Origin: Omnitrophica bacterium GWA2_41_15
GTDB lineage: Bacteria; Omnitrophota; Gorgyraeia; Ghiorseimicrobiales; Ghiorseimicrobiaceae
DNA length: 52,338 nucleotides
Assembly (NCBI GenBank): GCA_919902105.1
Contig: CAKKQO010000028.1
Span: 49,220 to 101,557, forward strand
Direction: 5' to 3'
Part shown: positions 21,259 through 43,438 of the stretch, piece after piece
Layout of the letters: the number at the start of each line of letters is the position of its first letter
Numbering within the stretch: the first letter of the stretch is position 1
The notes under the pieces: generated by a model
What the model was told of the DNA's origin: nothing
What the model saw: only the letters and a program-made list of their open reading frames with translations
The model's database searches: none
Translations under genes and position numbers: made by a program

Positions 21259-21268
21259 ACGTCAGTAA

Positions 21269-21303: not shown

Positions 21304-21321
21304 ATTTATTAGTTCTATCAA

Positions 21322-21903: not shown

Positions 21904-21930
21904 TGCGGCTTAAACTTCCTTAAGATAGAC

Positions 21931-21971: not shown

Positions 21972-21975
21972 TTAT

Positions 21976-22452: not shown

Positions 22453-22459
22453 CTTGCAC

Positions 22460-22580: not shown

Positions 22581-22629
22581 ATCCTTAATTAACCAACTTT
22601 GCAAACTGCTCGTTCTCTACTCCCCGCAT

Positions 22630-22680: not shown

Positions 22681-22696
22681 AATATTCACCTCTCTT

Positions 22697-23611: not shown

Positions 23612-23631
23612 ACTCTACATTAAGGCATAAG

Positions 23632-23868
23632 TTATATCCCTAACGCCTGCTTTATCCTTTCCTTATCAAATCCAATAATAATCTCACCTTCAATGTCTAA
23701 TACCGGAACCCCCATTTGCCCGGACTTTTTAATCATCTCTTGAGCCTTAGCATGGTCAGCTGATACATCAATATTCTCAAACTGAATATTATTTTCCGTT
23801 AAGAACTGTTTTGCCCGAATGCAATATGGGCAGGTAGACGTACTATAGACCTTAACGGTTTTAGCCAT
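23632..23868 (-). CDS. Glutaredoxin/NrdH-like redoxin
   Basis: 78-aa thioredoxin-fold protein with active site CPYCIRAK and the cis-Pro loop MGVPVLDIEG. The CPYC motif is glutaredoxin-like, but its position next to trxB suggests reduction by thioredoxin reductase as in NrdH-like redoxins. Lies between superoxide reductase and trxB on the same strand with short gaps. Confidence 0.92.
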   Translation of the reverse strand: MAKTVKVYSTSTCPYCIRAKQFLTENNIQFENIDVSADHAKAQEMIKKSGQMGVPVLDIEGEIIIGFDKERIKQALGI

Positions 23869-23888
23869 AGTTTCACCTTTATATTGTC

Positions 23889-24332
23889 TTAGAGGTCAGT
23901 CTCGTTAATCCATGCGCCGTGAATATTACAAAGTTCAATTACCGTAAGCTTGCCTTCCTTTGCCTTAAGATGCAGGCCTGCCGCTGGATTTAAGGTGAGC
24001 GGCGTCAAAATTACTCGCGAGATAAATTCAAGGTTTAGATAAAAATCAATATGCATAATAAAGTGTTTTTCTTCCATCGGGTGCTGGATTTGCCCAATTC
24101 TTGCATGCACATCTTGGCAGCCCTCTGGGATCAAACCGCATTTTTTAACTACCGCGATTGCCGGAATATGCTTTTTATCGGTCTCACCGAGGTTAACGTT
24201 ATCTGTAGGTGTTTTTATCGCGTCCTGTTTTTCTTCAAAGGCTTTCTTTTCTGCTCCGCATACCGGGCATTTTTCCGGAGCGCTTCCGTTTATTGAAATG
24301 TAGCCGCAAACCTTACAGACAAAACCTTTCAT
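23889..24332 (-). CDS. Superoxide reductase with N-terminal rubredoxin-like domain
   Basis: About 147 aa. Residues 1-32 are a small rubredoxin-like zinc or iron ribbon ([22 protein letters not shown]) as in rubrerythrin, instead of the desulforedoxin domain of desulfoferrodoxin. The C-terminal part is the neelaredoxin fold with all five iron ligands visible: KHIPAI, QHPMEEKHFI and ELCNIHGAW. It reduces superoxide to H2O2 without forming O2. The ATG at 24332 has a perfect AGGAGG site. A hairpin at 24352-24385 separates it from the flavoprotein gene. Confidence 0.9.
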   Translation of the reverse strand: MKGFVCKVCGYISINGSAPEKCPVCGAEKKAFEEKQDAIKTPTDNVNLGETDKKHIPAIAVVKKCGLIPEGCQDVHARIGQIQHPMEEKHFIMHIDFYLNLEFISRVILTPLTLNPAAGLHLKAKEGKLTVIELCNIHGAWINETDL

Positions 24333-24351
24333 ACCCACCTCCTCACAAGAG

Positions 24352-24385
24352 GACACTCGCGCAATACAATTTAGCGCGAGGTGTC
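24352..24385 (-). other. Hairpin between flavoprotein gene and superoxide reductase
   Basis: GACACTCGCGC (24352-24362) pairs with GCGCGAGGTGTC (24374-24385) with one bulge and an 11-nt AT-rich loop. It overlaps the flavoprotein stop codon and lies just upstream of the superoxide reductase ribosome site; it could stabilise or separate the two messages. No T run, so termination is not clear. Confidence 0.6.
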
Positions 24386-24956
24386 ACTTTCTGACTGCAA
24401 CTTTTTTACCTAACTCAAATGCCTTCGTTAAATAATCAGGGTGTTTTAATATGGCCGCCTTTTCATCCACTCCTATACAAAATAATTCTTCTTTATAATC
24501 CGCATTTATCACGGAAAAGAAATTTCTAACAATAGATTTAGCATTGGCAAAAAAATCGCATCTGTCGGATGCCTCAACAGCAATAAATGCGCCGATTCTT
24601 TTTTTATCGGCAAATTTATTATTTTTAAATAAATGCTTTCCCCGCCAGGCGCACTGAAAACGATCAATCATCTTTTTTACCTGTGCGCTAAGCGAGCCAA
24701 AAAATATTGGCGAGGCAATAATTAAAACATCTGCTGCCATAACCTTTTTATGGATCTGGCGAAAATCATCGGCAATATTGCATTCGCCGCTATTTGGCAT
24801 ATCCTCACATTCCTGACAGCAGGAAAAACTAAGCTTATTTAATATAATTTTTTCTGTCTTTGCGCCGCAAGTATGCGCCCCTGCAAGCGCCTTATCCAAT
24901 AAAATATCGCTATTTCCGCCAATTCTCGGGCTGGCATTTATCCCTAAAACATTCAT
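24384..24956 (-). CDS. NAD(P)H-dependent FMN reductase / iron-sulfur flavoprotein-like
   Basis: 190-aa flavodoxin-fold protein with N-terminal FMN site GINASPRIGGNSDILLDKA and ASPIFFGSLSAQVKKMIDR. A Cys cluster at about residues 46-60 (SCCQECEDMPNSGECN) suggests an iron-sulfur site as in the archaeal Isf family, though spacing is not the classic one. Probably transfers electrons between ferredoxin and O2-stress proteins. ATG overlaps the PNPOx-like gene stop by 4 nt. Confidence 0.8.
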   Translation of the reverse strand: MNVLGINASPRIGGNSDILLDKALAGAHTCGAKTEKIILNKLSFSCCQECEDMPNSGECNIADDFRQIHKKVMAADVLIIASPIFFGSLSAQVKKMIDRFQCAWRGKHLFKNNKFADKKRIGAFIAVEASDRCDFFANAKSIVRNFFSVINADYKEELFCIGVDEKAAILKHPDYLTKAFELGKKVAVRK

Positions 24957-25417
24957 TTTTTTTCTTTAATATGCGCAGGTGTAAGATCAACTACTTCTTC
25001 CACCGCCATTTCAATTAAATATTTTGGGCTGGGTAAAAGCGCCTCGGGTTGATGCTTATGGCCTCGGTAACCTTGAATACTCCTAATTACCCGCTGGGTT
25101 ATCCGGCTGTTAAGATTATTTTCCCAATCGCTAATAACCCCGGCCTCAAGCTCTTCCTTATCAACTATCCTTGCCTTGCCTTTAAGGCAATATCCTTTAA
25201 ACTTATGTTCATCGACCGCGGTAATGCTTATATTGGGATTATTCTGCAGATTGTTAAATGTTCGGCCATGATAAAGATCGAGCAGATAAATCTTACCCTC
25301 CCTGCCTATCTTTACGATGCCTTTACAGGCGTTATGGCTTCTTCCTTGTTTATCAATAGTAGAAATAATCGTAAAGCTCTGATGCTCAAAAAAATCAACT
25401 ATTTCTTCACTCAGCAT
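24953..25417 (-). CDS. Pyridoxamine 5'-phosphate oxidase-fold flavin-binding protein
   Basis: About 154 aa, PNPOx-like split-barrel. FTIISTIDKQGRSHNA, KIYLLDLYHGRTFNNLQ and ISITAVDEHKFKGYCLKG are the typical strands. Such proteins bind FMN, F420 or heme; the actual cofactor cannot be seen. The ATG at 25417 was chosen over a TTG at 25432; GGAG lies 10 nt upstream. Coupled to the FMN-reductase gene that follows, so a flavin electron-transfer pair is plausible. Confidence 0.8.
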   Translation of the reverse strand: MLSEEIVDFFEHQSFTIISTIDKQGRSHNACKGIVKIGREGKIYLLDLYHGRTFNNLQNNPNISITAVDEHKFKGYCLKGKARIVDKEELEAGVISDWENNLNSRITQRVIRSIQGYRGHKHQPEALLPSPKYLIEMAVEEVVDLTPAHIKEKK

Positions 25418-25476
25418 ATCCGCATACTCCAAGCTGATTCTTTATCTCTTCGCCTTCTTCTTAGCTTTAGCAACTC

Positions 25477-26325
25477 TTAAACCAACCCCTCCAACATTTC
25501 CCTGACTTTTTTCTTCCTTTGCGAAACTGAGATTTCCTTTACTGTAAACTTCTCATTAAAAACAGGCGAATCTTTTTTATAAAAAACCCCTAAAGCAACC
25601 GGTGCATCCGTATTATAATCCCACTCCCTTATTTTCTTCAATGCTTCATTGTAATCAGAAAAGTTATGCTGCTTGAGCGCATAAACCTTCTGGTTATAAT
25701 AGTCATACAAATTAAAAAAGGTAACGCACACCTGCAGCACATCCACCAAAGAAAAACCCTTATGCATTATCGCCTCTTTTATAACATCTTTAAGTAAATC
25801 CATCCGGTTAGAATACCCCCGAGCGATAAAAGTTGCCCCGCTTGCAAGCATCAGCTCTAATGGATTAATCGGCAGTTCATTTGTTCCAGAAGGCGTAGAA
25901 CGGCCGCGAAAACCCAAAGGAGAAGTAGGGGTATATTGTCCTGTAGTGAGACCATAGACACGGTTATTATGGATAAGCATAGTGATATCAATATTACGTT
26001 TGGCGGCGAAAATTAGATGCTCTAAACCCTCGCCATAAGCATCGCCGTCTCCGGCAAATCCGATTACCTTTAAGTGCCCTTTGGCTATTTTAATTGCCTC
26101 GGCGACTGGAGTAACCCGGCCGTGTATAGAATAAAAACTATTGATATTTAGATAATCTACAATCTTGGCATGACAGCCGATGCCGGAAACCAAAACAATA
26201 TTTTCCGAAGGACATTCACCTCCCTCGAATATCTCGCGTAGAACCGTCTTTACCGCATTTAGGATGGCAAAATTTCCGCAACCCGGACACCAGCTATTTT
26301 TGGCGTAGGTTCCCAGCTCTCTCAT
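25477..26325 (-). CDS. 2-oxoacid:ferredoxin oxidoreductase, beta subunit
   Basis: TPP-binding beta subunit (282 aa) of a two-subunit 2-oxoacid ferredoxin oxidoreductase. WCPGCGNFAIL, GIGCHAKIVDYL, FAGDGDAYGEGLEHL (TPP/Mg motif) and NNRVYGLTTGQYTPTS are diagnostic. It oxidises a 2-oxoacid to the acyl-CoA and reduces ferredoxin. Which acid (2-oxoglutarate, pyruvate or branched-chain) is not decided by sequence. Its ATG overlaps the alpha-gene stop by 1 nt (TAATG). Confidence 0.92.
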   Translation of the reverse strand: MRELGTYAKNSWCPGCGNFAILNAVKTVLREIFEGGECPSENIVLVSGIGCHAKIVDYLNINSFYSIHGRVTPVAEAIKIAKGHLKVIGFAGDGDAYGEGLEHLIFAAKRNIDITMLIHNNRVYGLTTGQYTPTSPLGFRGRSTPSGTNELPINPLELMLASGATFIARGYSNRMDLLKDVIKEAIMHKGFSLVDVLQVCVTFFNLYDYYNQKVYALKQHNFSDYNEALKKIREWDYNTDAPVALGVFYKKDSPVFNEKFTVKEISVSQRKKKVREMLEGLV

Positions 26326-27974
26326 TAAAGCGCCTTTCTTACTTTTTCTTCTAATTCCTCAACCGAAAACGGCCTGCCGTCATATTTTAAGATTTTCTTA
26401 TCTACCCTAAAGCCAAACCCGGAAATCAGGCGCACGAATTGACCAGTAGCATTATTTTCTATGCAGATTATCTTTTCGCTACCCATAAGCGCTTTGCTTA
26501 ATTTCTCTTCGCAAAAAGGGCTAAGCACAGCTACGCATACCGCCTTTAATCCAAGATTTTCAGCAACCTCTACGCATACGCCCTTATTCGACCCCCAGCA
26601 TAATAAGATTGTTTCAGAGTTTAAATTGCCATACGCCTTTATTGTTGGATAATTCTCTAATTCCCCTATCAGATACTTTTCCTTACGCAGGCGCTTATCC
26701 TGCATCAAAACCACTGTGTTAGATTCTTCTGTGGTTATCCCAAATTCATCATGTTCATAGCTGTTTACTTTAATAACCGCATCCTTATCCGGCACAAAGG
26801 TTAAAGGTGAAATGCCGCTTTCACTCTCTGCATATCGCTTAAATTCTCCATTTCTATCCCATAAGAGAGGACTACATCCCTTGGGTTCCTCTATCGCGCC
26901 TATATCAAAGTTAAAACTGCCTTCGCTTAAATTTTTATCACTTAAGATAATTGCCGGTATCTGAAATTTCCAAGCAAAGTTTAAGGCAACCTGCGCCCAG
27001 AAATACGCCTCTTCGGCATCGCCGGGAGCTGCTACGAAACGGACAAATTCGCCTTGAGCGGCGTTTAAGGCAAAAAGCAATTCAGTCTGCCCGCTATATG
27101 TCGGCAGGCCCGTGCTTGGTCCGGGACGCTGTCCGAGTATAATTACTACCGGCAATTCTGCCATCCCAGAAAGACTCAGCCCTTCAGTCATCAAGCAAAA
27201 TCCTCCTCCGGAAGTCCCTACTGCCGCTTTTTTACCGACGTAGGCAAAACCCAGCGCCAAAAGCATTACTCCGATTTCGCTTTCCGGATGTATTACAGTA
27301 ATACCGAAATATTCTGCCTTCTCAGCTAAAAAGTGTAATAAACTCGAACTTGGCGTCATTGGATAGGCAATATAGGTATCAAGCCCTGCGCTATATAACC
27401 CAATACCTATTGCTTCGTTGCCTGTAACTAACGGTAATGCTTTTCTTGTAGTACTTTCAATTTTAACAACTCCGCTGACTGCTTCATAACCTCTTCTGGC
27501 AAGCCTCAAGTTTAAATCTATTTCCTTAGAAATATTCTTCCGAAAAACTTTTTCCAAAACCTCCCAGCTTAAATTCACCGCTTTACAAAGAGAACCGATA
27601 GCACAGGAATTACGCATTATTGCCAAAGCATTTTCTTCTTTGACTATTTTCTCCAGCGCCACCCCTATGCCTTCTGCTTTGGATAAATCGGAATTATAGA
27701 TGACAAGTGCCTCTTGCGCTAACTTATTTTTATGCAAGTCAACTGTGTCCTGATTTAAAGCGAGTAAAAAATTTATTTTATTTGTATGCGCTGAAATTCT
27801 TTTTTTGGAAAGTCTGATAATAGAAAAGTTATGACCGCCGCGGATTAAGGAAGGATAATCGTAATAAATATAAGCATGCCAGCCCAGTTGGCCGAATATC
27901 CGGGCGATTAATAAACCGGCCTGATTTATGCCGTCGCCGGCTTTCCCGCCGATTAAAATGGAAAATTCATCCAC
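26325..27974 (-). CDS. 2-oxoacid:ferredoxin oxidoreductase, fused gamma-alpha subunit
   Basis: 549 aa. Residues 1-180 are the gamma domain (GKAGDGINQAGLLIARIF, DYPSLIRGGHNF); residues 185-549 are the alpha (PFOR N-terminal) domain with IAYPMTPSSSLLHFLAE, HPESEIGVMLLALGFAYVG and TSGGGFCLMTEGLSL. This gamma-alpha fusion plus separate beta is the KorAB/VorAB-like arrangement. No delta ferredoxin subunit is encoded next to it, so it should use a soluble ferredoxin, possibly the one at 34803-35258. Confidence 0.92.
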   Translation of the reverse strand: MDEFSILIGGKAGDGINQAGLLIARIFGQLGWHAYIYYDYPSLIRGGHNFSIIRLSKKRISAHTNKINFLLALNQDTVDLHKNKLAQEALVIYNSDLSKAEGIGVALEKIVKEENALAIMRNSCAIGSLCKAVNLSWEVLEKVFRKNISKEIDLNLRLARRGYEAVSGVVKIESTTRKALPLVTGNEAIGIGLYSAGLDTYIAYPMTPSSSLLHFLAEKAEYFGITVIHPESEIGVMLLALGFAYVGKKAAVGTSGGGFCLMTEGLSLSGMAELPVVIILGQRPGPSTGLPTYSGQTELLFALNAAQGEFVRFVAAPGDAEEAYFWAQVALNFAWKFQIPAIILSDKNLSEGSFNFDIGAIEEPKGCSPLLWDRNGEFKRYAESESGISPLTFVPDKDAVIKVNSYEHDEFGITTEESNTVVLMQDKRLRKEKYLIGELENYPTIKAYGNLNSETILLCWGSNKGVCVEVAENLGLKAVCVAVLSPFCEEKLSKALMGSEKIICIENNATGQFVRLISGFGFRVDKKILKYDGRPFSVEELEEKVRKAL

Positions 27975-27986
27975 CCTATTCCCTTT

Positions 27987-29180
27987 CTATGATGATATTT
28001 TTTTAGCAAACTCTTTACCGAAATCAAAACAGCGCGTTAATTCATTTTTATCCGGCCTGTATTTGACTGAAATACTCGGAACAGATACCTCGATGCCGGA
28101 TTCTTTAAGCAATTCTTCTATATTTTTTACTGCCCCGCCTGCCCACCCGTATGAGCCAAATACTGCGGCACGCCTATTTTTAGGCTTAAGTCCCTTTAAA
28201 AATTTTAAAAAACCGGCCATCACCGGAAGCATATCGTTATCATGAGTAGATGAGCCGAAAATAAACCCTTTAGCATTAAACATCTGTTTTATGACCTCCG
28301 TGCGGTCAGATAACGCGATATCAAAAACTGCCGTCTCAACACCCGATGAAATAAGGCCGGCGGCAATCTCATAAGCCATCTTTGCAGTCGACTGCCACAT
28401 TGTTTCATAAATAATGACTGCCTTGGGCTTGGTGGTTTCATTTTTTGCCCAACTAACATAAGCGTTAATAATTTTTGCGGGATCCTTACGCCAGAGGATG
28501 CCGTGGCTGGGCGCGATTATGTCTATGGCAATATTCATTTTTTGTATTTCTTCAATTTTACGCAAAATTATCATGCTAAACGGCCAGAGGATATTAGTAT
28601 AATATTTTTCCGCCTCATCCATCAACACGCATTCGTCAACTTCATCATCAAAAAGCTTTGAACTCGCTAAGTGCTGGCCAAAGGCATCGTTGGAAAGAAG
28701 CAGTTTCTCCTCAGCGCAATAGGTAAACATACTGTCCGGCCAGTGAATCATCGCCGCCTCAAGAAAACCAAGCGTGCGTTTACCCAGCTTTAATTTATCG
28801 CCGGTTTTAACCACGCAAAAATCCCAGTTTTCATAATAGTTCCTATATAAACCTTCCTTACATTTTTCCGTCCCGAATAATTTTGCGCCAGGACAAAGCT
28901 TAGTTATGGCAGGGAGCGCTCCGGAATGGTCGGTTTCCACGTGATTTACTATAATATAGTCTATTTTTCCCGGCTCAACTATCTCACGGATTCTTTCAAT
29001 CATTTCTCCCGCAAACGGACCGTAAACCGTATCTACCAAAGCAATCTTTTCATCCACTATCAAATAGGCATTATAAGTCGTCCCTCTTGGCGTAGAGTAG
29101 GTATGTCCGTGAAAGGTGCGCACGTTCCAGTCAATTACACCCACCCAATAAATCCCTTTTTTTATCTCGAGTGGTTTCAT
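27987..29180 (-). CDS. fprA: Flavo-diiron protein (FprA-type A flavoprotein)
   Basis: 397 aa: a metallo-beta-lactamase diiron domain with HVETDHSGAL (His-x-Glu-x-Asp), HWPDSMF and PSHGILWR ligands, then a C-terminal flavodoxin domain (IYETMWQSTAKMAYEIA, FGSSTHDNDMLPV, FGSYGWAGGAVK). It reduces O2 to water or NO to N2O using electrons from rubredoxin, encoded just upstream. Both diiron and FMN sites look complete. This is one of two NO-reducing candidates in the window. Confidence 0.94.
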   Translation of the reverse strand: MKPLEIKKGIYWVGVIDWNVRTFHGHTYSTPRGTTYNAYLIVDEKIALVDTVYGPFAGEMIERIREIVEPGKIDYIIVNHVETDHSGALPAITKLCPGAKLFGTEKCKEGLYRNYYENWDFCVVKTGDKLKLGKRTLGFLEAAMIHWPDSMFTYCAEEKLLLSNDAFGQHLASSKLFDDEVDECVLMDEAEKYYTNILWPFSMIILRKIEEIQKMNIAIDIIAPSHGILWRKDPAKIINAYVSWAKNETTKPKAVIIYETMWQSTAKMAYEIAAGLISSGVETAVFDIALSDRTEVIKQMFNAKGFIFGSSTHDNDMLPVMAGFLKFLKGLKPKNRRAAVFGSYGWAGGAVKNIEELLKESGIEVSVPSISVKYRPDKNELTRCFDFGKEFAKKISS

Positions 29181-29200
29181 CTGCTTTTACCCCTCTTTGC

Positions 29201-29258
29201 GCCGCAAAAGTTTTTGCGGCATCAAAGAAAAATGAAACATCAGCTGATCATTTTTCTT
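29201..29258 (-). other. Two hairpins between rubredoxin and flavo-diiron genes
   Basis: AAGAAAAATGA/TCATTTTTCTT (29225-29235 with 29248-29258, perfect 11 bp; it includes the rubredoxin TGA stop) and GCCGCAAAA/TTTTGCGGC (29201-29209 with 29212-29220, loop of 2). On the minus strand the first has a T-rich descending arm and could attenuate transcription so that rubredoxin is made in excess over the flavo-diiron protein. Confidence 0.6.
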
Positions 29259-29409
29259 CGACAAACTCGCTCTTCTCCGCACCGCATACCGGACATACCC
29301 AGCTTTCGGGTAAATTCTCAAAAGCTATTCCCGGGGCAACGCCGCTGTCCGGATCGCCTAAAGCCGGGTCATAAATATAACCACAAACTGTGCAACGGTA
29401 TTTCTGCAT
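29248..29409 (-). CDS. Rubredoxin
   Basis: 53-aa rubredoxin: [15 protein letters not shown] near the N-terminus and [11 protein letters not shown] near the C-terminus give the four Fe ligands, with the usual Asp/Gly-rich loop ([18 protein letters not shown]) between. ATG has an AAGAGGAAGG ribosome site. Its position directly before fprA is the standard pairing in which rubredoxin donates electrons to the flavo-diiron protein. Confidence 0.95.
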
Positions 29410-29518
29410 ATTTCCTTCCTCTTTATCTGGGCATTTATTGAGGCGTCCTTAAATGAAGAAACCAGATACATCCCATAACTTATGTTATGCAGGACATTTT
29501 TATCCATGTATTTAGTTA

Positions 29519-31459
29519 TTATACCACAGCGGCCATCTCTTTATTATCTACAGTAATCGGCGGATGCAGCATCGGCCTTAATTTTAGTTTCTCGCGCTTT
29601 TTATTGACGTGGTCAATAATAATATGGGCACCTTTAACTGGATCACTCTCAAAGCTCCATCCGGCGCCAACAATATCAAAAATATCTTTTGTGATATAGC
29701 GGGTTAGATTATCGCTGCCTAAAACCGGCAAGGATGAGCCGAATAAAACAAATATCCCGGAGGCTACCGCATACCAGCCAATAGCAATGGCCTTTTCCGC
29801 CATCCATTCAGGAGCCGCCCCGGCAACAGGCAGGTCGCTAAAATCTTCGCCTAATCCGCCCTCGTTTAAAATATTACAACACTCAATTAAAATACGGCTG
29901 TTATCCACGCAGGCTCCGGAATGAAGCACCGGAGGAATCCCGACGGCTTCACAGACTTCCCGTAGGCCAAGCCCCGCGTATTTTAAAGCCGCCTCAGGCT
30001 GCAATAACCCTGCCTTTCCGCAGGCAACCGCGGCACATCCTGTCTGCACTACCAAAACATCATGCGCCAGCAACTCTTTGACCATGGCGATGTGTGAGCC
30101 ACCGCTCTCATTCTTAGGGTTATCGCATCCGACTACCGCAACCACACCGCGGATTCTACCTTCAATAATTGCATTATTTAAAGGGAGGTAAGTTGATCTA
30201 TATCTGCCTCCTAAATGATGAAACACGCCTTCAGCAGTAAAACCAACCACAATATCGGTTTTTTCCTTCGGGATATGCACGCGCGCCTTATCGCGCTTGG
30301 GGAAATTTTCAATCGCCTCCTCAATCAAACGCCTCGCTGTCGTAACTGCTTCTTCTTCTTTAAACTCTACATGTTCCACCCCAGGAAAACGCGCCTTCTC
30401 ATGCGTAGAGACAATCTTAGTATGATAGCAACTTGCTACCTTTGCCAAAGACGGCATCACACATTGTAAATCAACCAGCATCAAATCGACGGCTCCGGTA
30501 ACCAAAGCCAATTCCTGCTGCAAGAAATTTCCAGCCACGGGAATTCCTTTTCTTACCAAAATCTCATTTGCCGTGCAACATATACCGGTAATATTTATTC
30601 CCTTAGCGCCTTTTGCCTTAGCCTTAGCAATTAATGCTTCTTCCATTGCTGTCTCTGCCACCACGTCCGATAAAAGCGGCACATGGCCGTGGACAATAAT
30701 ATTTACTTCGTCCTCTTTTAATACACCCAAGTTTGCCTGCGAACGTACGGGTTCAGGCAGGCCGAAAAGCACATCGGAAACCTCGGTTGCTACCATTGAA
30801 CCGCCCCAGCCGTCAGAAAGAGCAACTTTCATCGTAGCATTCACTAAACTTTTATAATCATTATCCACGCCAATATTGGTGCGCGAAAGCGCCTCGGTAA
30901 TCTCGCGGTCTATCCCGCGCGGCATAATCCCTAATTTACGCCAAAGTTCCCGCCGTTTTTTCGGCGCGCGCCTGACAAAAACCAATTCCCCGCTCTGCTG
31001 GCCGTATTCAGCAAGGATTTTTTCTGCCAAGTCTTTAGTGATGGCATTTAACGGCCTATTTTCTACGCTAACGCCGTATTCTTTAGCCACCTCTTTTAGT
31101 TTATCTTCAGCTTTAATACGGTAGCCCTCGGTCTTTCCCTCAGCTAAGGCTAAAAGCGCCAAAGTCAGATCCCGGCCGTGGTCATTATGGCAGGCAGAGC
31201 CGGCTACAGTATGACGCAAGAGGTTCCTTGCGGCAATAATATCCTTGTCTGCGCCGCAGACGCCGTATTGCGCACCTTCGCCAAAAGGATCAATTCTGCA
31301 GGGACCTAAATTACAGTTTTTACAGCACAACCCCAGTATGCCAAAACCGCAATGCGGCTCCTGCAATTCGCTTCTTTCCCATATTGTCTGAATACTTGCT
31401 TCTTGCGCGAGCTTTAACATCTCCTTAGTTGCAGAATCTGCAGAATTTATTTTTTTCAT
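29519..31459 (-). CDS. cooS: Anaerobic (Ni-Fe) carbon monoxide dehydrogenase catalytic subunit
   Basis: 646-aa CooS. The D/B-cluster Cys region PHCGFGILGLCCKNCNLGPC is at about residues 34-55. C-cluster ligands are visible: His in VHGHVPLLSD, and Cys in GICCTANE, DLQCVMPS, VGCDNPKNE, GCAAVACGK and HSGACVDNSR. All key residues appear present, so it should oxidise CO to CO2. No CooF ferredoxin, ACS or CO-sensing CooA is adjacent, and electrons may pass to soluble ferredoxin or rubredoxin. GGAGGT lies 12 nt before the ATG. Confidence 0.95.
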   Translation of the reverse strand: MKKINSADSATKEMLKLAQEASIQTIWERSELQEPHCGFGILGLCCKNCNLGPCRIDPFGEGAQYGVCGADKDIIAARNLLRHTVAGSACHNDHGRDLTLALLALAEGKTEGYRIKAEDKLKEVAKEYGVSVENRPLNAITKDLAEKILAEYGQQSGELVFVRRAPKKRRELWRKLGIMPRGIDREITEALSRTNIGVDNDYKSLVNATMKVALSDGWGGSMVATEVSDVLFGLPEPVRSQANLGVLKEDEVNIIVHGHVPLLSDVVAETAMEEALIAKAKAKGAKGINITGICCTANEILVRKGIPVAGNFLQQELALVTGAVDLMLVDLQCVMPSLAKVASCYHTKIVSTHEKARFPGVEHVEFKEEEAVTTARRLIEEAIENFPKRDKARVHIPKEKTDIVVGFTAEGVFHHLGGRYRSTYLPLNNAIIEGRIRGVVAVVGCDNPKNESGGSHIAMVKELLAHDVLVVQTGCAAVACGKAGLLQPEAALKYAGLGLREVCEAVGIPPVLHSGACVDNSRILIECCNILNEGGLGEDFSDLPVAGAAPEWMAEKAIAIGWYAVASGIFVLFGSSLPVLGSDNLTRYITKDIFDIVGAGWSFESDPVKGAHIIIDHVNKKREKLKLRPMLHPPITVDNKEMAAVV

Positions 31460-34802: not shown

Positions 34803-35258
34803 TTATCCTTGTGGTTTAATTTCTCTAAAATCAATTATCTGCTCACCCGGACAGCCAGCAGGACCTTTTTGTTCTGAATGAGAATCTGTGGATATCCCAG
34901 ATAAGGGGTTCTCTATACCCTTTTCTTTAAGATAATCGAGTGCTTGTTCTAGGTATTCCTGCTGGTTGTGTTCTTTAAGATGTTTTAAATGGGCCTTGAT
35001 TACATTTTTTCCTTGTTTGACAATATTTACCATTACTTTTTTCTCATTATAGACTTGAGCTTCTCTTTCTTCAATAGTAATTGCACTTTCAGGGCAATAA
35101 CCGATGCAGGCGCCCAGGCCATCGCAATATAAATCACTTACCAGTCTTACCTTGCCATCAATGACCTGCAGCGCCCCTTCCGGACAATTGGGGATACACA
35201 GACCGCAGCCATTGCATTTATCGCGGTCAATTTTTATAATTTTCCTTTTCATAGCCAT
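34803..35258 (-). CDS. Two-[4Fe-4S] ferredoxin ending in GCPG motif
   Basis: 151 aa. Ferredoxin domain with [14 protein letters not shown] and the variant [14 protein letters not shown] (second cluster with altered spacing) in residues 10-70, then a helical segment ([17 protein letters not shown]) and a C-terminal [15 protein letters not shown]. As I recall, a common single protein joins such a ferredoxin, a GCPGxxxxDF junction and a C-terminal SQLxQWP domain. Here the C-terminal part is a separate gene at 40955-41434, and both genes carry a junction motif. Probable electron carrier for neighbouring reductases. Confidence 0.88.
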
Positions 35259-36006: not shown

Positions 36007-37581
36007 CTATACTTCCTTCTCCAATGCAGGAATTCTGACAAACAAGGAAATCAGGGTCTTTACGCCGATTGAGCGGATTATATTTATCATCATGGCGGCA
36101 TAGCCTACAACGATAACCAATCCGAAGAGCATCGCCACATACATATAGGGCAGATATTTCGTTTCGCCAAAGTACAAATTGCGGCGCAGCATCCCAGCTA
36201 AACCGGCATAACCCATCGCCATAGACATTCCGATTCCCCCGATAAAATTACACCAGAAATGCAGACTAACTAAACGGTTGCTTTTGAGTTCTAGCTTTGT
36301 CACCATAGGGAAAACTGCATAAAGCGCGGCAAAAAGGGTCATCGATAAACCCACAAGGATCATAGTATGGGCATGGAATCCGACAACCCATTGGGTGTTA
36401 TGCAGGATGCGATTAGTATCGACGTTGGCCTGCATAATGCCAGCGACTGCGCCAATCGCAAATCCAGTTATTCCGCCAAGCATAAACTTAAGCGGCACTG
36501 TCATCTTTAACGGCCTTGCCAACCAAAGAGTTGCCAGTGAACAAAATATAGCGATCCCTGTGGTAATGATTTCGAGGGAAGTAATCAATTCACCTGAAAA
36601 AAACCTTAAGAACAGCGGCTGCGGCTGGTCTGATAAAAGATGATGGCTCCAGACGCTCCAAGATACTACGAGCTCAATAAACATTGCCGCGCGCACAACA
36701 TTTTCTCCAAAGATAGACCTCTTGGTTATAAGCATAGTCAAAAGATACCAGGTGCCTACTACATAGATAAGCACTAAACCATCGGCAATCAGATCAAGGC
36801 CCCACCAATAAACATTTTTATAAATAAGCGGGTCTATAATTTTATGCGAAAACATTTTGCCGGCAAAACCTGAAACGGCATAAATGATAAGAACCAAAGA
36901 AACAAGACCTAAGACTAGAGCATCAAGTACCGTATCCACCGAACCTTTAAATATAGCTGTAAGCGGAAGCGGAACATCAGGCAGATCCTTCCTTTTACCT
37001 TTGCCAACGAGGCGTCGGAAAAGATTTATCAAGCCATCCAACCCTAAACCAGAAATTATATAGGCAGTAGTTGGCTTGGTTTGTCCAGGGGCCTTTTTCA
37101 ATATCGTGGCATATAAATTAAAGCAAAAAATCAAAACAGAACTCATTATAGTAAACATACCTATGCCATAGCTCAAAAGCGAAACTGGCGTAGAGCGCAA
37201 TATAGGAAGCGGCCAATAATTGGTATAAAGTGCCGCGTAACGGAAAAGGAAACTGCTTAACCAGACAATCATAACTCCGCCAACCATCAGCCATAGATTA
37301 AGATGCGCTAACTTCTCGCTGAATAGCTTCTTATTCATTAAAGTCGGTACTAAAAAATAAAACGCCCCCATCACTAACATAAAGCTATAGCCAAATACGC
37401 CAACGATCGGATGGGCGTTTAATACCGCAAAATAATGCTCTGGCTCAATAAGTTTAATGTTGCAGAGCTCTGTGCGCATCATCATACCTTCAAGGCTGCT
37501 CAACCCAAAAAATAGCAGCGAAAAAACCACGAATCTTAAAGTAATTTTCTCCAGACTACCTAATTTTTTTATTAGATTCAT
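36007..37581 (-). CDS. Heme-copper oxidoreductase subunit I, NO-reductase-like
   Basis: 524-aa integral membrane protein with about 12-14 helices. Low-spin/high-spin heme histidines: His57 in AHPIVGVFGY (helix II) and His403/His405 in GFHAHTMIL (helix X). CuB/FeB histidines His313/His314 are in WSHHLLSD. The third metal ligand in helix VI, His in oxidases (GHPEVY) and NORs (HLWVEG), is Asp263 here: YWWGLDLIADGL, with a second Asp267 aligning to the NOR Glu. This suggests a NOR-type enzyme of an alternative group. ATG has a GGAGGAG site. It follows subunit II and is in an NO-defence region. Confidence 0.85.
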   Translation of the reverse strand: MNLIKKLGSLEKITLRFVVFSLLFFGLSSLEGMMMRTELCNIKLIEPEHYFAVLNAHPIVGVFGYSFMLVMGAFYFLVPTLMNKKLFSEKLAHLNLWLMVGGVMIVWLSSFLFRYAALYTNYWPLPILRSTPVSLLSYGIGMFTIMSSVLIFCFNLYATILKKAPGQTKPTTAYIISGLGLDGLINLFRRLVGKGKRKDLPDVPLPLTAIFKGSVDTVLDALVLGLVSLVLIIYAVSGFAGKMFSHKIIDPLIYKNVYWWGLDLIADGLVLIYVVGTWYLLTMLITKRSIFGENVVRAAMFIELVVSWSVWSHHLLSDQPQPLFLRFFSGELITSLEIITTGIAIFCSLATLWLARPLKMTVPLKFMLGGITGFAIGAVAGIMQANVDTNRILHNTQWVVGFHAHTMILVGLSMTLFAALYAVFPMVTKLELKSNRLVSLHFWCNFIGGIGMSMAMGYAGLAGMLRRNLYFGETKYLPYMYVAMLFGLVIVVGYAAMMINIIRSIGVKTLISLFVRIPALEKEV

Positions 37582-37596: not shown

Positions 37597-38133
37597 CTAT
37601 TCGGAAACTACGACGGCGTCCTTTAAAAACATCCGCCAGTTTTCCGGTCCGGAATACTCAGTGGAGCGGATACTGTAGTTTCCCTGCTTATCAAATATCC
37701 AGATAATCTCATTGGCATGGCCGGGCAATACCTGCATCTGAAAAACCATTGTTCCATCATCTCTGAATATCCCGAAGCCATAGGTAACATCCTGCGAAAA
37801 GAGGGTAAATTTAACTGGTTCATTTACTTTAAGTTTTATCGGATCCTCAGGAAGATAAAACTTATAGTCGGCAACATTAATTGCGACCTCTTTTTTAGAA
37901 AGTATCTGCTTCTTCAAAACCTGCCATCTTGTCCAGGGAAATTTAATGTGCGTGAAAACATGGAATCCCAGAGCCAAAACGATAACAAAAATAATCCAAG
38001 AGGTAAGCGAGATTTTAAATTTTAAATTAATCTTTTTCTCGGAAGTAACTGCTCGGCTAAATAAACTCATCAAGGTCAATACTGTCAAGGCATAAACCGT
38101 ATAGACGATTCCCACTATCGTTGTCGCATACAT
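37597..38133 (-). CDS. Heme-copper oxidoreductase subunit II, CuA site lost
   Basis: About 178 aa: two N-terminal membrane helices (about residues 4-26 and 45-65), then a cupredoxin domain (residues 85-182). The CuA signature C-x3-C-x3-H-x2-M is present in spacing but not in residues: STEYSGPENWRM has Ser, Ser, Asn and Met, and the upstream His (DVxHSF type) is Tyr in DVTYGFGIF. Thus CuA cannot form, as in quinol oxidases. It pairs with the subunit I gene 15 nt downstream. The ATG at 38133 is preferred for the AAGGATGG site seven bases before; ATG at 38145 is the alternative. Confidence 0.8.
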   Translation of the reverse strand: MYATTIVGIVYTVYALTVLTLMSLFSRAVTSEKKINLKFKISLTSWIIFVIVLALGFHVFTHIKFPWTRWQVLKKQILSKKEVAINVADYKFYLPEDPIKLKVNEPVKFTLFSQDVTYGFGIFRDDGTMVFQMQVLPGHANEIIWIFDKQGNYSIRSTEYSGPENWRMFLKDAVVVSE

Positions 38134-38226
38134 TTTACACACCATCCTTTCTTATCCCATTTTTTCTTTTGGTTTGTTTAATCTTGCGCGGATTAAGCGG
38201 CGTAAGGCAAGCACAGCAGGCATTTT

Positions 38227-38859
38227 TTATTTTAAGTGCTTCACGCTGAATAAACCGCTTACCTCTTCAAAAAGCACCGCTCTTACTCTTTCCTGCCATA
38301 ATTTCTGAAATTTTTCTTTTTGTTCTTTGCTTGCCGTTTGCACAATGCATTTTGTAAAAAGACCGGGCATCTCATCCTTCTGCGGCAGGCGTTCCGGATG
38401 ATAGGTAATTTTTACTGATTTTTTTGTATCCTCGCGGGTAAAAATAAAAGTGTTTGCTTCTTCATTCTTCTCATCAAAAAATAACTTATTTTTACGTACA
38501 AACTTCCCGCCTAATCCGGCAAAGCCAGTTTCAGGCGCGGCCCCGGTAATAAAAGTAATCACCTGTGAGATCGGGCCGTTGGCGCCGTGCTCTACGCTGC
38601 CTAAAACTTTTACATTTATTTCGCCCCTTATCGGGATATCTCTGCCATATAATGCCTCTAACGCCTTTTGTGTAATTTTGTAGGCGCCGGAAACTGCCGG
38701 ACAGGAATGGCCGGCAAATTTTACTGCATCAACATAAGTAAATACCAACTCTTCGCCTTCAGGCAAAGCGCCGAGAAATTCTCCCAGCGGCTCGCGCAGT
38801 TTTATCGGCGCGGCATCTTCATAAAACGGCTGTTTCCATCTTATATCGCTTATACACAT
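38227..38859 (-). CDS. FmdE-family (formylmethanofuran dehydrogenase subunit E-like) protein
   Basis: 210 aa. The FmdE hallmark FAGHSCPAVSGAYKI lies near residue 48, followed by GEINVKVLGSVEHGANGPI and FITGAAPETGFAGLGGKFVRK. The family occurs in bacteria without methanogenesis and is thought to bind metal; function in bacteria is unclear. ATG with GAGGGG before it. Found between Nfu and the heme-copper genes, so a role in maturation of the membrane reductase or its cofactors is a guess. Confidence 0.85.
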   Translation of the reverse strand: MCISDIRWKQPFYEDAAPIKLREPLGEFLGALPEGEELVFTYVDAVKFAGHSCPAVSGAYKITQKALEALYGRDIPIRGEINVKVLGSVEHGANGPISQVITFITGAAPETGFAGLGGKFVRKNKLFFDEKNEEANTFIFTREDTKKSVKITYHPERLPQKDEMPGLFTKCIVQTASKEQKEKFQKLWQERVRAVLFEEVSGLFSVKHLK

Positions 38860-39120: not shown

Positions 39121-39576
39121 TTAGCTATGCCTTGGCCTGATCTTGACTTCTTTAAATCTTCGCTTTAAATCTTCTTTATCTTCTTCGCTGAATTTTTCAG
39201 CTAAGGATGCCAAATCATCGCATTCTTCAAAAAATTTAGATAATCGTGGAGACGTCTTTAAAAGATCGGATAATTCAAATTTATGCAGGCTATTCTTTTC
39301 CAGCGCTCTCCTTGACTTATCAATAAACTCTCTCACTGTCTCTTGTTCTCTACGTAAGTTTTCCGTTATCTCAAGCACTAACCGGCGCAGTCTGGGATAA
39401 AGATAATTTTCTTCAAAATCAAAGTGCCTATTTGCCAAATCGTCTATTTTTGTTAAGATATTTTTAGCTTCATAGCAATCAGACGATTCTATTGCCCCTT
39501 GAAAAGAATTTACTAAATTTAACAGCTCTAAGTGGTCTTTTTGAAAATCATCAATAAAACTATCTACTCTTGCCAT
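39121..39576 (-). CDS. Hemerythrin-domain protein
   Basis: About 151 aa, four-helix hemerythrin/HHE protein. Visible ligands: His in DHLELLNLV, HFDFEENYLYPRL (H-x3-E). The later His ligands are less clear, so the second iron site may be incomplete. The ATG at 39576 has a perfect GGAGGTGG site. Lies directly after DUF2249, a common pair in nitric-oxide-linked clusters, and near three other hemerythrin-like genes. Probably binds O2 or NO through a diiron site. Confidence 0.8.
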   Translation of the reverse strand: MARVDSFIDDFQKDHLELLNLVNSFQGAIESSDCYEAKNILTKIDDLANRHFDFEENYLYPRLRRLVLEITENLRREQETVREFIDKSRRALEKNSLHKFELSDLLKTSPRLSKFFEECDDLASLAEKFSEEDKEDLKRRFKEVKIRPRHS

Positions 39577-39592
39577 AATTCCACCTCCCAAT

Positions 39593-39826
39593 TTAAACCT
39601 TCTTTATTTCTACAATCCAATCCTTTGGTCCTTTCTGTTCATAATTCCATGCGTATTTTCCTTTGTATTCCACTTCAAACTGATACCATAACGGCTTTGG
39701 ATCATGGTCGTTTATGATTCTTAAGGTTTCTCCGGCTTTTAATTCATCCCAGATTTGAAATATCTTCTCATGCCTTTGAAACGGCGGCATTGGCCTTAAA
39801 TCTAATGTTTGTATATTTACGCTCAT
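39593..39826 (-). CDS. DUF2249 domain protein
   Basis: 77 aa with the full DUF2249 pattern: TLDLRPMPPFQRHEKIFQIW, GETLRIINDHDPKPLWYQF and AWNYEQKGPKDWIVEI. DUF2249 proteins are often found with NO reductases and hemerythrins and are thought to be part of NO/redox metabolism; biochemical function is unknown to me. The ATG at 39826 was chosen because GGAG is 8 nt upstream; earlier in-frame starts give extra N-terminal residues. Overlaps no neighbour. Confidence 0.92.
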   Translation of the reverse strand: MSVNIQTLDLRPMPPFQRHEKIFQIWDELKAGETLRIINDHDPKPLWYQFEVEYKGKYAWNYEQKGPKDWIVEIKKV

Positions 39827-39952
39827 ATCCATATCTCCTTTCTCAAGAAACGTTACTTTCCCACTCAATACATATCCTTTAATCCCGGGTTTACATTTTC
39901 TCTTTAGCCTATCACAAAAATTATCTATCCGATGAGGGGCATACCCAGCTCA

Positions 39953-40050: not shown

Positions 40051-40428
40051 TTACTCAAATCTGCCTTGGGCAATTTTTGTATGTACTTCTATGTGGTCTT
40101 CTTCCGAAGGAGGCGGCTGGACAATATGCAAGACAGTAAGTTCTGTAAGAGCCCGCACACCTCTTTTTGTACCTCCAGGCACAATAATCAAATCCTTCTC
40201 TTTAGCTACTATTTTCTCATCTCCTCCCACAACTTCTGCTTCGCCTTCAAGAATACATAAAACCACATCTACTCCTGGAGTATGCACAGGAATAAACTGC
40301 CCTTGCTTAAAATACGCTAAAATAACTTTAATCTCATCTGACTCATAAACTACTTTTGGATTAAACCTATTCTCATTAAAGGATTTTAAATCCAAGGCAT
40401 TTACCTTAATAACCTCTTTATTCTCCAT
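40051..40428 (-). CDS. Cupin-domain protein
   Basis: 125-aa single cupin. Motif 1 is IPVHTPGVDVVLCILEGEAEV and motif 2 IVPGGTKRGVRAL; only some of the usual His ligands are clear. Proteins of this type are small metal-binding enzymes or sensors. A perfect AAGGAGAG precedes the ATG. Located between the PK_C-like gene and the DUF2249 gene in the NO-linked run. Function unknown. Confidence 0.85.
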   Translation of the reverse strand: MENKEVIKVNALDLKSFNENRFNPKVVYESDEIKVILAYFKQGQFIPVHTPGVDVVLCILEGEAEVVGGDEKIVAKEKDLIIVPGGTKRGVRALTELTVLHIVQPPPSEEDHIEVHTKIAQGRFE

Positions 40429-40440
40429 GCATCTCTCCTT

Positions 40441-40947
40441 CTAAGAGGAAGGACTTGAAATAATCTCTTCCAAAATTGGCCATTTATCTTTCTGGCTTAC
40501 CACAAATATAGCCGCGCTATCAGCACCCTTTTTTTCACCAGCGATTGCGACAACCTTACCCTCCCTAAGAATTCCGCCTTCCATCAGCATCTGCACAATG
40601 ATAAAACACACCTTTATTCCTGTGCCGTATCTTTCCCTGATACTGCGCAGGTATTTATACCAAGGGTTTAAGCCTAATCTACCTATGAGCTTGCGCCAGA
40701 ATAATAAACGGCAGCGGTGGGCATACACGGTAACACCGTTTTCCAGAAGATCCCGGAGGATATCATCCCTAAATCTTCTTTCTGGCGGCAGCCTTCCCTG
40801 ATCATAGGTTACCACAATCATTTTTACTTTTTTGCCCCTTAATACTTCAAACAATTTTGCCGCCGTCTCGCCGCTAGTTGATGCTACCGCAATAGTGGTT
40901 ATGCCATTTTTTTCTGCCGCCTCAACCGCCGTATTTAAAACATCCAT
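40441..40947 (-). CDS. Pyruvate-kinase alpha/beta-domain-like protein
   Basis: 168-aa Rossmann-like protein: AAEKNGITTIAVASTSGETAA near the N-terminus and KVVAIAGEKKGADSAAIF near the C-terminus match the stand-alone PK C-terminal alpha/beta domain (PK_C). No kinase catalytic domain is present. Such proteins are found in anaerobes with unknown function. Runs 7 nt after the gene at 40955 in the NO-linked run. Start uncertain by a few codons, no strong ribosome site. Confidence 0.75.
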   Translation of the reverse strand: MDVLNTAVEAAEKNGITTIAVASTSGETAAKLFEVLRGKKVKMIVVTYDQGRLPPERRFRDDILRDLLENGVTVYAHRCRLLFWRKLIGRLGLNPWYKYLRSIRERYGTGIKVCFIIVQMLMEGGILREGKVVAIAGEKKGADSAAIFVVSQKDKWPILEEIISSPSS

Positions 40948-40954: not shown

Positions 40955-41434
40955 TTATGAAACCCATTCTTCTGAGAGAACGTCTCCCTGAAGGCTGACT
41001 ACGATAGACTTAATCGGGATTTTCCTTTTTGCCGAATGAAGCGCCTCTTCTGCGATTGCCACAAGCCCGGCACAGCAAGGCACCTGCATAGTCATTACTG
41101 TAAGTGTATTTATCTTGGCATCGTCAATCAGCGATTTTACCTTCTCGGTATATTCTTCTTGCCCTTCATCTAACTTTGGGCAGGCGATAGCAACAGACTT
41201 TCCCTTAAGATAATCCTTGTGAAAGTCTCCTACTGTAAAAGCCACGCAATCCGCTGATAAAAGCACGTCTGCCTTCTGGTAATATGGCGCTTCAGGCGAT
41301 ACCAAGTGCAGTTGTATTGGCCATTGCTTCAGCTGCGACTGGCGTACCCCGCCTTCAACTTTACCACCTTTCGTGTCCTCTCTAAAATCCTGCATTCTCG
41401 AACCCGGGCATCCGCCCATTCCTGAATCACTCAT
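40955..41434 (-). CDS. C-terminal half of the ferredoxin-GCPG-SQLxQWP protein family, stand-alone
   Basis: About 159 aa. It begins MGGCPGSRMQDFRED and continues RQSQLKQWPIQLHLV, LLSADCVAFTVGDFHKDYL, ACPKLDEGQEEYTEKV and VMTMQVPCCAGLVAIA: the domain that in many anaerobes follows a two-cluster ferredoxin in one polypeptide. Here the ferredoxin half is a separate gene (34803-35258). Conserved Cys in SADC, ACPK and PCC suggest a redox or metal site. The ATG at 41434 has AAAGGAGGT before it and overlaps the DUF1858-hemerythrin gene by 4 nt. Confidence 0.85.
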   Translation of the reverse strand: MSDSGMGGCPGSRMQDFREDTKGGKVEGGVRQSQLKQWPIQLHLVSPEAPYYQKADVLLSADCVAFTVGDFHKDYLKGKSVAIACPKLDEGQEEYTEKVKSLIDDAKINTLTVMTMQVPCCAGLVAIAEEALHSAKRKIPIKSIVVSLQGDVLSEEWVS

Positions 41435-42249
41435 TTTGTTACCTCCTTTTTTTCTGTTTTGATTTTTTGAACTCTTTGCTCTACTTCTTGAACGAACTTT
41501 TTGCACTTTTCTATCACCTCCTTATCTAACTTCTCTTCTGCTTCATTGAACTTAGTAAAAAGCTCTCCTACTTGTGTAGTAGAAATACTTCTATCGATCC
41601 ACGGATATAGAATCTCATCCTCTCTCTTTATGTGTTCGCTGAGAAGTTCTTTATATGCGTTGAGGTGTGCGAAGACTGTTTTTTTATCTCCTTTATCTAA
41701 GGCCCTGATCATCGCCTGCACATGGCCCCGCGCTGTCTCGTGGTCAGCAAGCATGGTTTTAATAATATCTAAGTTTTTATCTGTATAGCCAAAGAGGATG
41801 TCTTCTTCCTTAGCGTGATGAAATTTATCCGCATAGAACCTGATGAAATCCAGCCCGTCCAGAATCAACTTTTTCCCGGAGTCGGAAGCGATATCAACAT
41901 TTTCGATCACCTCCGGTATGAGCCCAATCCACTTCTTTATCAGGGCATGTTCATCTATCAGCCTCTTTATCACAGGAGAATACTTAATCTCCTTAACCGC
42001 GGTCTTTTTCGCCGCCTGCTTAAATGCGGGCCTCTTAATATCTCTTTGCGGATAGATAGTTTTTTCTATCCTATAGATGAGTTCCGTTTCCTGCGCCTGG
42101 GAAAGGTTGTGTATAGCTACTATGTCTTTCAAAAGGCAGGAACCCAAGGTACAGGGAACACAGCCTATTTTATATTCCTCCAGGATCTTGCCTACCTGAG
42201 GAAATTTCATGATAACCTCTTTTATCGGTGTATTAAGATATTTATGCAT
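41431..42249 (-). CDS. DUF1858-hemerythrin protein (RIC/ScdA-like)
   Basis: 272 aa. Residues 1-60 (GCVPCTLGSCLLKDIVAIHNLS) are a DUF1858/ScdA_N-like segment with three Cys; residues 95-235 are a hemerythrin HHE domain with DEHALIKK, FHHAKEEDILF, DHETARGHV and EHIKREDEILYP, giving a full set of five His plus carboxylates. It recalls the RIC/YtfE di-iron proteins that repair iron-sulfur clusters after NO damage. Overlaps the following gene by 4 nt; starts 5 nt after DUF438. Confidence 0.88.
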   Translation of the reverse strand: MHKYLNTPIKEVIMKFPQVGKILEEYKIGCVPCTLGSCLLKDIVAIHNLSQAQETELIYRIEKTIYPQRDIKRPAFKQAAKKTAVKEIKYSPVIKRLIDEHALIKKWIGLIPEVIENVDIASDSGKKLILDGLDFIRFYADKFHHAKEEDILFGYTDKNLDIIKTMLADHETARGHVQAMIRALDKGDKKTVFAHLNAYKELLSEHIKREDEILYPWIDRSISTTQVGELFTKFNEAEEKLDKEVIEKCKKFVQEVEQRVQKIKTEKKEVTK

Positions 42250-42253: not shown

Positions 42254-43030
42254 TTATCTCTTCTTCTTTTTGAGGTCAGCGGGGGCGAAACAGCAATACC
42301 CTATCGCATCGAATTTCTTCCGCACGCCCTTCCACTCATCTTTCTTAAACGTTTTCAGGCACATGGGATAAAGTATATTATCCTCTTTATATATGTGTTC
42401 ATCTAAATCTTTCGTTAAAAATTCAATCGTTGGCGTAATGGCGCCCATAAATTTTTTGAAATCCTTATGTTCGGCCATCATGGTGTTCTGGAATTCTTTC
42501 TTCTTTGCCAAGAATTCAACATGATCCGCTTTAAATATCTGCGGCGGCTCAGTTATGCCGTGCGCCTCCAAACGAGGGAAGAGCGCTTCTTCTTCGCGTT
42601 TATGGTGTTTTTCGGTCTCCACAAAGAAATGCGATAACTCTTTCAAGGTGTCTATCTCCCGATTAGATTTCTCAAAAGAGCCGAGCGTTTTTATCCTCTT
42701 TAGAATCCGCTTGAGTTTCTTTAAATTTTTCTTTATTATCTCATGCTCATCCATGCATATCTGTATCGGATGTGCAGACGGCAGTTTTATTTTTTTTCTC
42801 TCTATGCCGAGCTGTTTTTTCATCACCTCAAGGTGGACATCGCATAAACGTTTCATCTCCTCTCTCTCTACGCCTTCCTTGATCAGCTCCTGTTCGGCCA
42901 AAACCAACTCTTTTACGTCTATATCCTGAATATACTTCGCCGCCTCTTTCTTCAGCGGCGCTAAATCTTTTTCTTCGGCCGTATGTATTTTTTTCAGTAT
43001 TTCCTTTAAATCTGCTGAATTAGCCTTCAT
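42254..43030 (-). CDS. DUF438-hemerythrin protein
   Basis: 258 aa. An N-terminal DUF438 region (HTAEEKDLAPLKKEAAKYI, EMKRLCDVHLEVM) is followed by a hemerythrin domain (MDEHEIIKKNLKKL, EKHHKREEEALFPRL, KADHVEFLA, DEHIYKEDNILYPM). The PAS domain found in many DUF438 proteins is absent. Iron-site residues are complete. Probably O2/NO binding or sensing. The ATG at 43030 has AGGAGG 8 nt upstream; a GTG three codons before is less likely. It follows the Rrf2 regulator by 12 nt. Confidence 0.88.
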   Translation of the reverse strand: MKANSADLKEILKKIHTAEEKDLAPLKKEAAKYIQDIDVKELVLAEQELIKEGVEREEMKRLCDVHLEVMKKQLGIERKKIKLPSAHPIQICMDEHEIIKKNLKKLKRILKRIKTLGSFEKSNREIDTLKELSHFFVETEKHHKREEEALFPRLEAHGITEPPQIFKADHVEFLAKKKEFQNTMMAEHKDFKKFMGAITPTIEFLTKDLDEHIYKEDNILYPMCLKTFKKDEWKGVRKKFDAIGYCCFAPADLKKKKR

Positions 43031-43042
43031 CCGGCTCACCTC

Positions 43043-43438
43043 CTAAACCAATGAAGCAAGAGTAATTGCTTTTAACTCGCTTACCACATATTCTTCAATG
43101 GCACTTATCCTCATACGTAATACACAAGCGCCCCTGTCAGGGCAGATTTTCTTTTTGAAAATGCATTCATTCAACCGCAGAGGCCCCTGAAATGCCTCTA
43201 TTAAGTCCGTCAAAAGTATCTTTTCTAAAGAAAAATTTAACCTAAAGCCGCCGCGCTTTCCTTTACGCGATTTTAATATGCCCTTTTTATTTAAAACCTG
43301 CAAAATCTTCCGCAAAAAAGGCCGCGGAATCTTTAACCCTTTGACTAACCTTGTAACCGAAACTAAGCGGCCGCCCTCACGCGCAATAACACATAATGCC
43401 CTGACGGCATAGTCTGTGTCCCTATTGATTAATTTCAT
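43043..43438 (-). CDS. Rrf2-family iron-sulfur regulator (NsrR/IscR-like)
   Basis: 131-aa winged-helix regulator. DYAVRALCVIA and KIPRPFLRKILQVLNKKG are the HTH; KGKRGGFRLNF is the wing. Three Cys, CIFKKKICPDRGAC (C-x6-C-x5-C), bind a cluster in this family, which senses NO, O2 or cluster status. It is the first gene of the hemerythrin/NO-linked run, preceded by a promoter with a palindromic operator and a 25-codon ORF, so autoregulation and control of the downstream run are likely. No strong ribosome site before its ATG. Confidence 0.9.
   Translation of the reverse strand: MKLINRDTDYAVRALCVIAREGGRLVSVTRLVKGLKIPRPFLRKILQVLNKKGILKSRKGKRGGFRLNFSLEKILLTDLIEAFQGPLRLNECIFKKKICPDRGACVLRMRISAIEEYVVSELKAITLASLV

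Follow-up and report, generated by a model that had tools for sequence, protein, structure and literature searches.

A probable gNOR-type NO reductase with aspartate at a metal-ligand position in Omnitrophica bacterium GWA2_41_15

In NO reductases (NORs), the non-heme iron FeB is held by three histidines, and a conserved glutamate lies four residues after the first of them (PMC10256718). The window, i.e., the whole 52,338-nucleotide stretch of DNA from Omnitrophica bacterium GWA2_41_15 analysed here, encodes a heme-copper protein (subunit I, Table 1) whose helix VI carries aspartates in place of a ligand histidine and of this glutamate, which raises the question of what kind of enzyme it is. 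A sequence-only reading had judged the protein to be neither a normal cytochrome oxidase nor a normal cNOR or qNOR, and had suggested an alternative NOR family with changed metal ligands or a new family. Our comparisons indicate that subunit I and the adjacent subunit II very likely form a gNOR, that is, a two-subunit, membrane-bound and quinol-fed NO reductase, the probable role of which in this bacterium is NO detoxification.

The catalytic subunit and its helix VI aspartates

Subunit I matched the Pfam COX1 family (E=8.6e-63), and its NCBIfam matches were all oxidase models far under their cut-offs. It is the sole full-length COX1-family member of its genome. A second, weak COX1 match of the genome (L017, G000 C30) is a short CcsA-like membrane protein, the gene of which adjoins genes for glutamyl-tRNA reductase and a siroheme synthase-like protein; this hints at the way in which heme is made in this bacterium.

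The sequence-only reading had listed five of six catalytic histidines (His57, His313, His314, His403 and His405), and all five were confirmed at these residues, as were Asp263 and Asp267. We compared helix VI by sequence alignment, with qNOR, cNOR, NO dismutase (NOD), cbb3, aa3 and sNOR as reference groups. Helix VI of subunit I (WGLDLIADG) aligned gap-free with those of qNOR (WIVHLWVEG) and cNOR (WVIHLWVEA), with Asp263 at the CuB/FeB histidine position and Asp267 at the position of the NOR glutamate or the oxidase tyrosine. Therefore, Asp263 replaces the ligand histidine and Asp267 replaces the NOR glutamate, exactly as had been read from the motif YWWGLDLIADG. A conserved histidine at the ligand position of this protein would have spoken against the assignment, but in the sequence alignment subunit I and its relatives have Asp there, and it is the rows of the six reference groups that have a helix VI His. 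His313-His314 aligned with the HH pair of every other group except NOD, and Glu337 aligned with the helix VIII glutamate of cNOR (FSALEPLPL) and qNOR (FSAMEVVPL), where NOD has Gln. By alignment only, the canonical Glu of the D-channel corresponds to Leu264 and the canonical Lys of the K-channel to Ala344 in subunit I.

An AlphaFold2 model of subunit I, which contains neither metal nor heme, had a pLDDT of 84.6 and a pTM of 0.87, with lower confidence around residues 311-320 and 389-399, and placed Asp263 and Asp267 in one predicted helix (251-286). Foldseek returned the bo3 and aa3 oxidases as the nearest solved folds (TM about 0.78). These A-family oxygen reductases share with the window pair the fold, the HH of the VWxHH motif and a cupredoxin-type subunit II, but their helix VI His, the cross-linked Tyr four residues on, CuA and the canonical D- and K-channel residues are all lacking in the window pair. 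With cNOR and qNOR, subunit I has in common the gap-free helix VI, an acid four residues past the ligand position and the helix VIII Glu. However, cNOR and qNOR have three His and a Glu at or near FeB, where subunit I has Asp263 for one His and Asp267 for the Glu. They also possess a NorC subunit or a fused NorC-like N-terminal domain, whereas subunit I has neither and is partnered by a cupredoxin protein. Subunit I with Asp267 also differs from sNOR and eNOR, in which the active-site residue is N and Q, respectively (PMC8756737).

Table 1 Features of the gNOR locus and the adjoining run of genes in the window
Feature	Coordinates	Strand	Basis or remark
Predicted gNOR catalytic subunit I (heme-copper superfamily), 524 aa	36007..37581	-	ORF, PF00115, clade, AlphaFold2, Foldseek
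His313-His314, two retained non-heme metal ligands, helix VII	36640..36645	-	37/37 motif-independent homologues
Helix VI motif YWWGLDLIADG, residues 258-268	36778..36810	-	Ungapped alignment with qNOR/cNOR
Predicted gNOR subunit II, 182 aa, membrane anchor and cupredoxin domain without CuA ligands	37597..38145	-	Weak CoxB match
FmdE-domain protein, cassette	38227..38859	-	PF02663 1.1e-8; absent from syntenic regions of three relatives
Hemerythrin-domain protein, cassette	39121..39591	-	PF01814 1.6e-7; absent from syntenic regions
DUF2249 protein, cassette	39593..39868	-	PF10006 1.1e-26; absent from syntenic regions
Cupin-like protein, cassette	40051..40428	-	PF07883 6.9e-6, just under cut-off; absent from syntenic regions
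Pyruvate-kinase C-terminal-like (PK_C) domain protein, cassette	40441..40947	-	PF02887 1.4e-7; absent from syntenic regions
183-aa protein, no family match	40955..41506	-	Found in all three relatives
Hemerythrin-domain protein, cassette	41431..42249	-	PF01814 7e-13; absent from syntenic regions
DUF438-hemerythrin protein, cassette	42254..43039	-	PF04282 9.5e-18, PF01814 8e-19; absent from syntenic regions
Rrf2-family regulator, head of run, resident	43043..43438	-	PF02082 8.3e-29

Relatives of subunit I and its assignment to gNOR

A genome-contig scan, steered by an alignment of subunit I with artificially diverged copies so that its patterns fell on helices VI and X, found 442 matches to the patterns, and 426 of these are relatives. 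The best 80 of these 426 align over the full length with 45-65% identity. These 80 loci were chosen by a pattern that includes both aspartates, so the presence of both in 80/80 is circular and does not count as independent evidence. A motif-free test was made by full-length searches of 135 genomes from the genus of the Sulfurimonas crateris locus L039 and 95 genomes from the phylum of the Candidatus Methylomirabilis locus L019. Among the 37 motif-independent homologues, Asp263 and Asp267 are invariant in all 36 that cover these positions, which shows that they are no product of chance or sequencing error. His57 is likewise kept in 36/36, and His313, His314, His403 and His405 in 37/37. An alignment of 81 proteins has 83 invariant positions, which include Glu337 and, apart from the replaced His, all heme and metal ligands.

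The window protein departs from its relatives in places: helix X, mostly G[AP]H[VF]H in the family, reads GFHAHTM, and K212, V275 and T282 stand where the family has (nearly) invariant R, A and A. Contigs of archaea (L042, L050 and L081; Thermoproteota, Geothermarchaeota) also encode proteins of the gNOR type, in which the WWGLD..ADG motif recurs. Searches across the phylum and the class to which the window belongs yielded distant matches only (E no better than 7e-18), and the plasmid and phage matches listed are ordinary oxidases with less than 27% identity.

The hosts of the relatives include Sulfurimonas, Sulfurovum, Persephonella and Methylomirabilis. The first three are reported gNOR hosts, with D as the active-site residue at the oxidase Tyr or NOR Glu position (PMC8756737 Table A4), which is Asp267 in subunit I, and Ca. 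Methylomirabilis is a further one (PMC6094997). M. oxyfera has one qNOR, one sNOR, one gNOR (Damo_1118-1119), two NODs and an aa3 oxidase (PMC6094997). When the COX1-family proteins of two Methylomirabilota genomes were typed by motifs against this set, the orthologue of subunit I (62%) was the protein left over once aa3, qNOR, NOD and sNOR had been assigned. Moreover, the enzyme positions in the 2.8-Mb Methylomirabilota genome G604 are linear with the Damo locus numbers (r=0.99998, all points), and a line fitted with gNOR left out puts the expected position of Damo_1118-1119 at 949.9 kb, about 6 kb from the orthologue L146 at 943.6 kb. The evidence that L146 is the counterpart of the annotated M. 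oxyfera gNOR is strong but indirect.

Further maximum-likelihood analysis, from which two loci with heme-synthesis-type ORFs and one fragment had been removed beforehand, placed subunit I inside the gNOR clade of the heme-copper tree. The 25 gNOR rows, among them those of Sulfurimonas, Persephonella and Methylomirabilis, lie on one side of a branch supported at 96/98. Subunit I falls within its bacterial part (97/97), to which the archaeal gNOR-type rows are the sister branch. The sNOR rows lie outside the clade, and cNOR and qNOR form a separate branch at 100/100. Long branches make the tree unreliable for deep relations among the heme-copper families. Two unassigned heme-copper proteins of the Nitrospirota genome G445 (L144 and L154), with unusual helix motifs, also have long branches.

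These data indicate that subunit I, judged by its sequence, is a member of the already named gNOR family. It shares with gNOR (NorGH; M. oxyfera Damo_1118-1119 and the Sulfurimonas, Sulfurovum and Persephonella proteins) the helix VI motif WWGLD[LM][IV]ADG and the five His, and the pair has in common with gNOR the full-length homology, a CuA-less cupredoxin subunit II encoded directly upstream and the clade. The suggestion of an alternative NOR family with changed ligands is therefore borne out by the hosts, the Asp, the genome position and the clade. The pair of aspartates together with the separate branch agrees with the view that the protein is neither a normal oxidase nor a normal cNOR or qNOR. 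The option of a new NOR family finds no support. From this assignment we infer that the gene pair reduces NO. gNOR has been listed as proposed only, whereas cNOR, qNOR, bNOR and eNOR are characterised (PMC11388526). Our literature search found no report of a purified gNOR and nothing direct on gNOR ligands or on gNOR in related lineages. The His-to-Asp change in gNOR has reportedly been described before. Denitrification surveys do name gNOR, and in the general family libraries its matches are to cytochrome oxidase models only.

Proposed metal site, electron donor and competing functions

Subunit II matched the CoxB model TIGR02866 under its cut-off (E=1.1e-7). A homologue of it is encoded directly upstream of subunit I in 80/80 loci, and the CuA motif CxxxCxxxH is absent from subunit II in all 80. 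In nearly all rows aligned, the CuA segment reads STEY[SA]GP. Loss of CuA is a trait of quinol oxidases. Since subunit II lacks CuA, the electrons probably come from quinol, and gNOR (norGH) has been described as quinone-oxidising and non-electrogenic (PMC8906906). A difficulty for a quinol donor is that, in the ~90% complete genome, no MqnA was found, MenD had no match over the cut-off, and the one MenA-like prenyltransferase was under the cut-off. In Persephonella and Sulfurimonas loci, a gene of ~195 aa with no Pfam match lies directly 3' of subunit I (L048 9614-10198, L041 9580-10173).

In the mechanism that we propose, the low-spin heme of subunit I would be bound by His57 and His405 and the high-spin heme by His403. 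By analogy with NORs, the non-heme metal would be held by His313, His314 and Asp263, the last in the role of the third His. One turn further along the helix, Asp267 would stand in for the NOR Glu, either as a further ligand or as a proton relay, and Glu337, which matches the second Glu of NORs, in helix VIII, would be the second acid. Electrons from quinol would serve to reduce two NO to N2O, in a reaction that probably pumps no protons. With two His and one or two carboxylates as ligands of the non-heme metal (His313, His314, Asp263 and possibly Asp267), the site would be unlike the His3 site of oxidases and the His3 or His3-Glu site of known NORs and would have a correspondingly different redox chemistry. 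We see about an even chance that gNOR has such a site and that this bacterium, apparently an anaerobe, acquired gNOR along with a cassette dedicated to NO stress. The strict conservation of Asp at a ligand position throughout a large family yields a clear, testable prediction, namely that within this well-studied superfamily the metal site of gNOR has changed.

The same features bear on other functions. Subunit I might be an oxygen reductase whose metal site is unusual and for which O2 is the acceptor or is scavenged, considering its Pfam COX1 match, the A-type oxidases as its nearest folds and sequences, and the O2-defence genes nearby (desulfoferrodoxin, rubrerythrin). But helix VI has no His, the cross-link position is occupied by Asp267 and not by Tyr, the canonical channel residues are absent, and acids stand at both NOR Glu positions, all of which makes this function improbable. 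Still less probable is an NO dismutase, or another NO-converting enzyme with a product other than N2O. NOD, another heme-copper relative, also has one of its metal ligands changed, from His to Asn (PMC3413370), and gNOR and NOD co-occur in Methylomirabilota genomes. However, the change in NOD lies in helix VII (HN) of a qNOR-like single chain, whereas subunit I keeps this HH intact and is altered in helix VI; it also retains Glu337, where NOD has Gln, and its clade is far from that of NOD.

Loss of a conserved metal ligand is a usual sign of decay, and subunit I might be a decayed or non-catalytic heme-copper protein, e.g., a gas sensor. Set against this are the 83 invariant positions with all other heme and metal ligands among them, a subunit II that is always adjacent and an Asp common to bacterial and archaeal members, so that we consider decay very unlikely indeed, the least probable of these alternatives.

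Genomic neighbourhood and a probable NO-stress cassette

The neighbours of the gNOR pair are proteins of the NO- or O2-stress type. The hemerythrin-domain protein nearest to the DUF438-hemerythrin protein (41431..42249) weakly resembles the iron-sulfur repair protein RIC/YtfE (TIGR03652, 7.9e-6, under cut-off), and its homologues adjoin gNOR in L020 and L021. The Rrf2-family regulator scored over the cut-off of TIGR00738 and under that of the NsrR model (2.9e-14), and possibly controls the cassette.

The gNOR gene is absent from G297, a genome of the same genus, and from G160 and G182, two genomes of the same family. In the IspH/Rrf2 region of the three relatives, none of the genes for subunits I and II, the three hemerythrin proteins, DUF2249, cupin, PK_C and FmdE was found, and Rrf2 is conserved beside IspH without the cassette. 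The regions of all three contain the Rrf2 regulator and the 183-aa protein, and those of two contain CooC, CooS, an HD protein and a MetV-like protein; the third stretch (L176) is shorter because its contig ends. Since the three relatives keep the surrounding genes but lack the pair and the block, the block was probably acquired as an NO-stress cassette beside an Rrf2 regulator that was already resident. Gain is the simplest reading, and repeated loss a possible one. By its GC content, the cassette does not stand out as foreign (0.414 vs 0.419 and 0.410).

Around most gNORs, no hemerythrin/DUF2249/cupin block was detected, whereas the window block is partly common to WOR-1 loci. In the WOR-1 locus L021, gNOR occurs with DUF2249 (67% identical), hemerythrin, HD, Rrf2, DUF438-hemerythrin and cupin genes, so that at least one further lineage has all or part of the block together with gNOR. 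The case suggests a spread of gNOR into anaerobic lineages in company with NO-stress genes, and the N2O-forming potential of such genomes can therefore be missed.

A resident flavodiiron protein (27987-29180) resembles NO-reducing flavorubredoxins, under the model cut-off, and the cell therefore probably has two NO-removing systems, with gNOR acting in NO detoxification beside the flavodiiron protein. The latter belongs to an anaerobic redox island (20095-31459 of the window) that is largely conserved in the same-genus genome and further includes the CooS/CooC CO dehydrogenase genes, a 2-oxoacid oxidoreductase pair, desulfoferrodoxin and a rubrerythrin/ferritin-like protein.

In addition, one ORF spans the ferredoxin-like and 183-aa proteins in L175 (3670-4530) and L176 (3366-4217). 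In the window, the ferredoxin-like gene (34803-35258) and the 183-aa gene are separate and lie ~6 kb apart, and L174 has, besides a separate copy, a ferredoxin ORF of similar length (8316-9191). The ORF may have been split or duplicated by an insertion or rearrangement.
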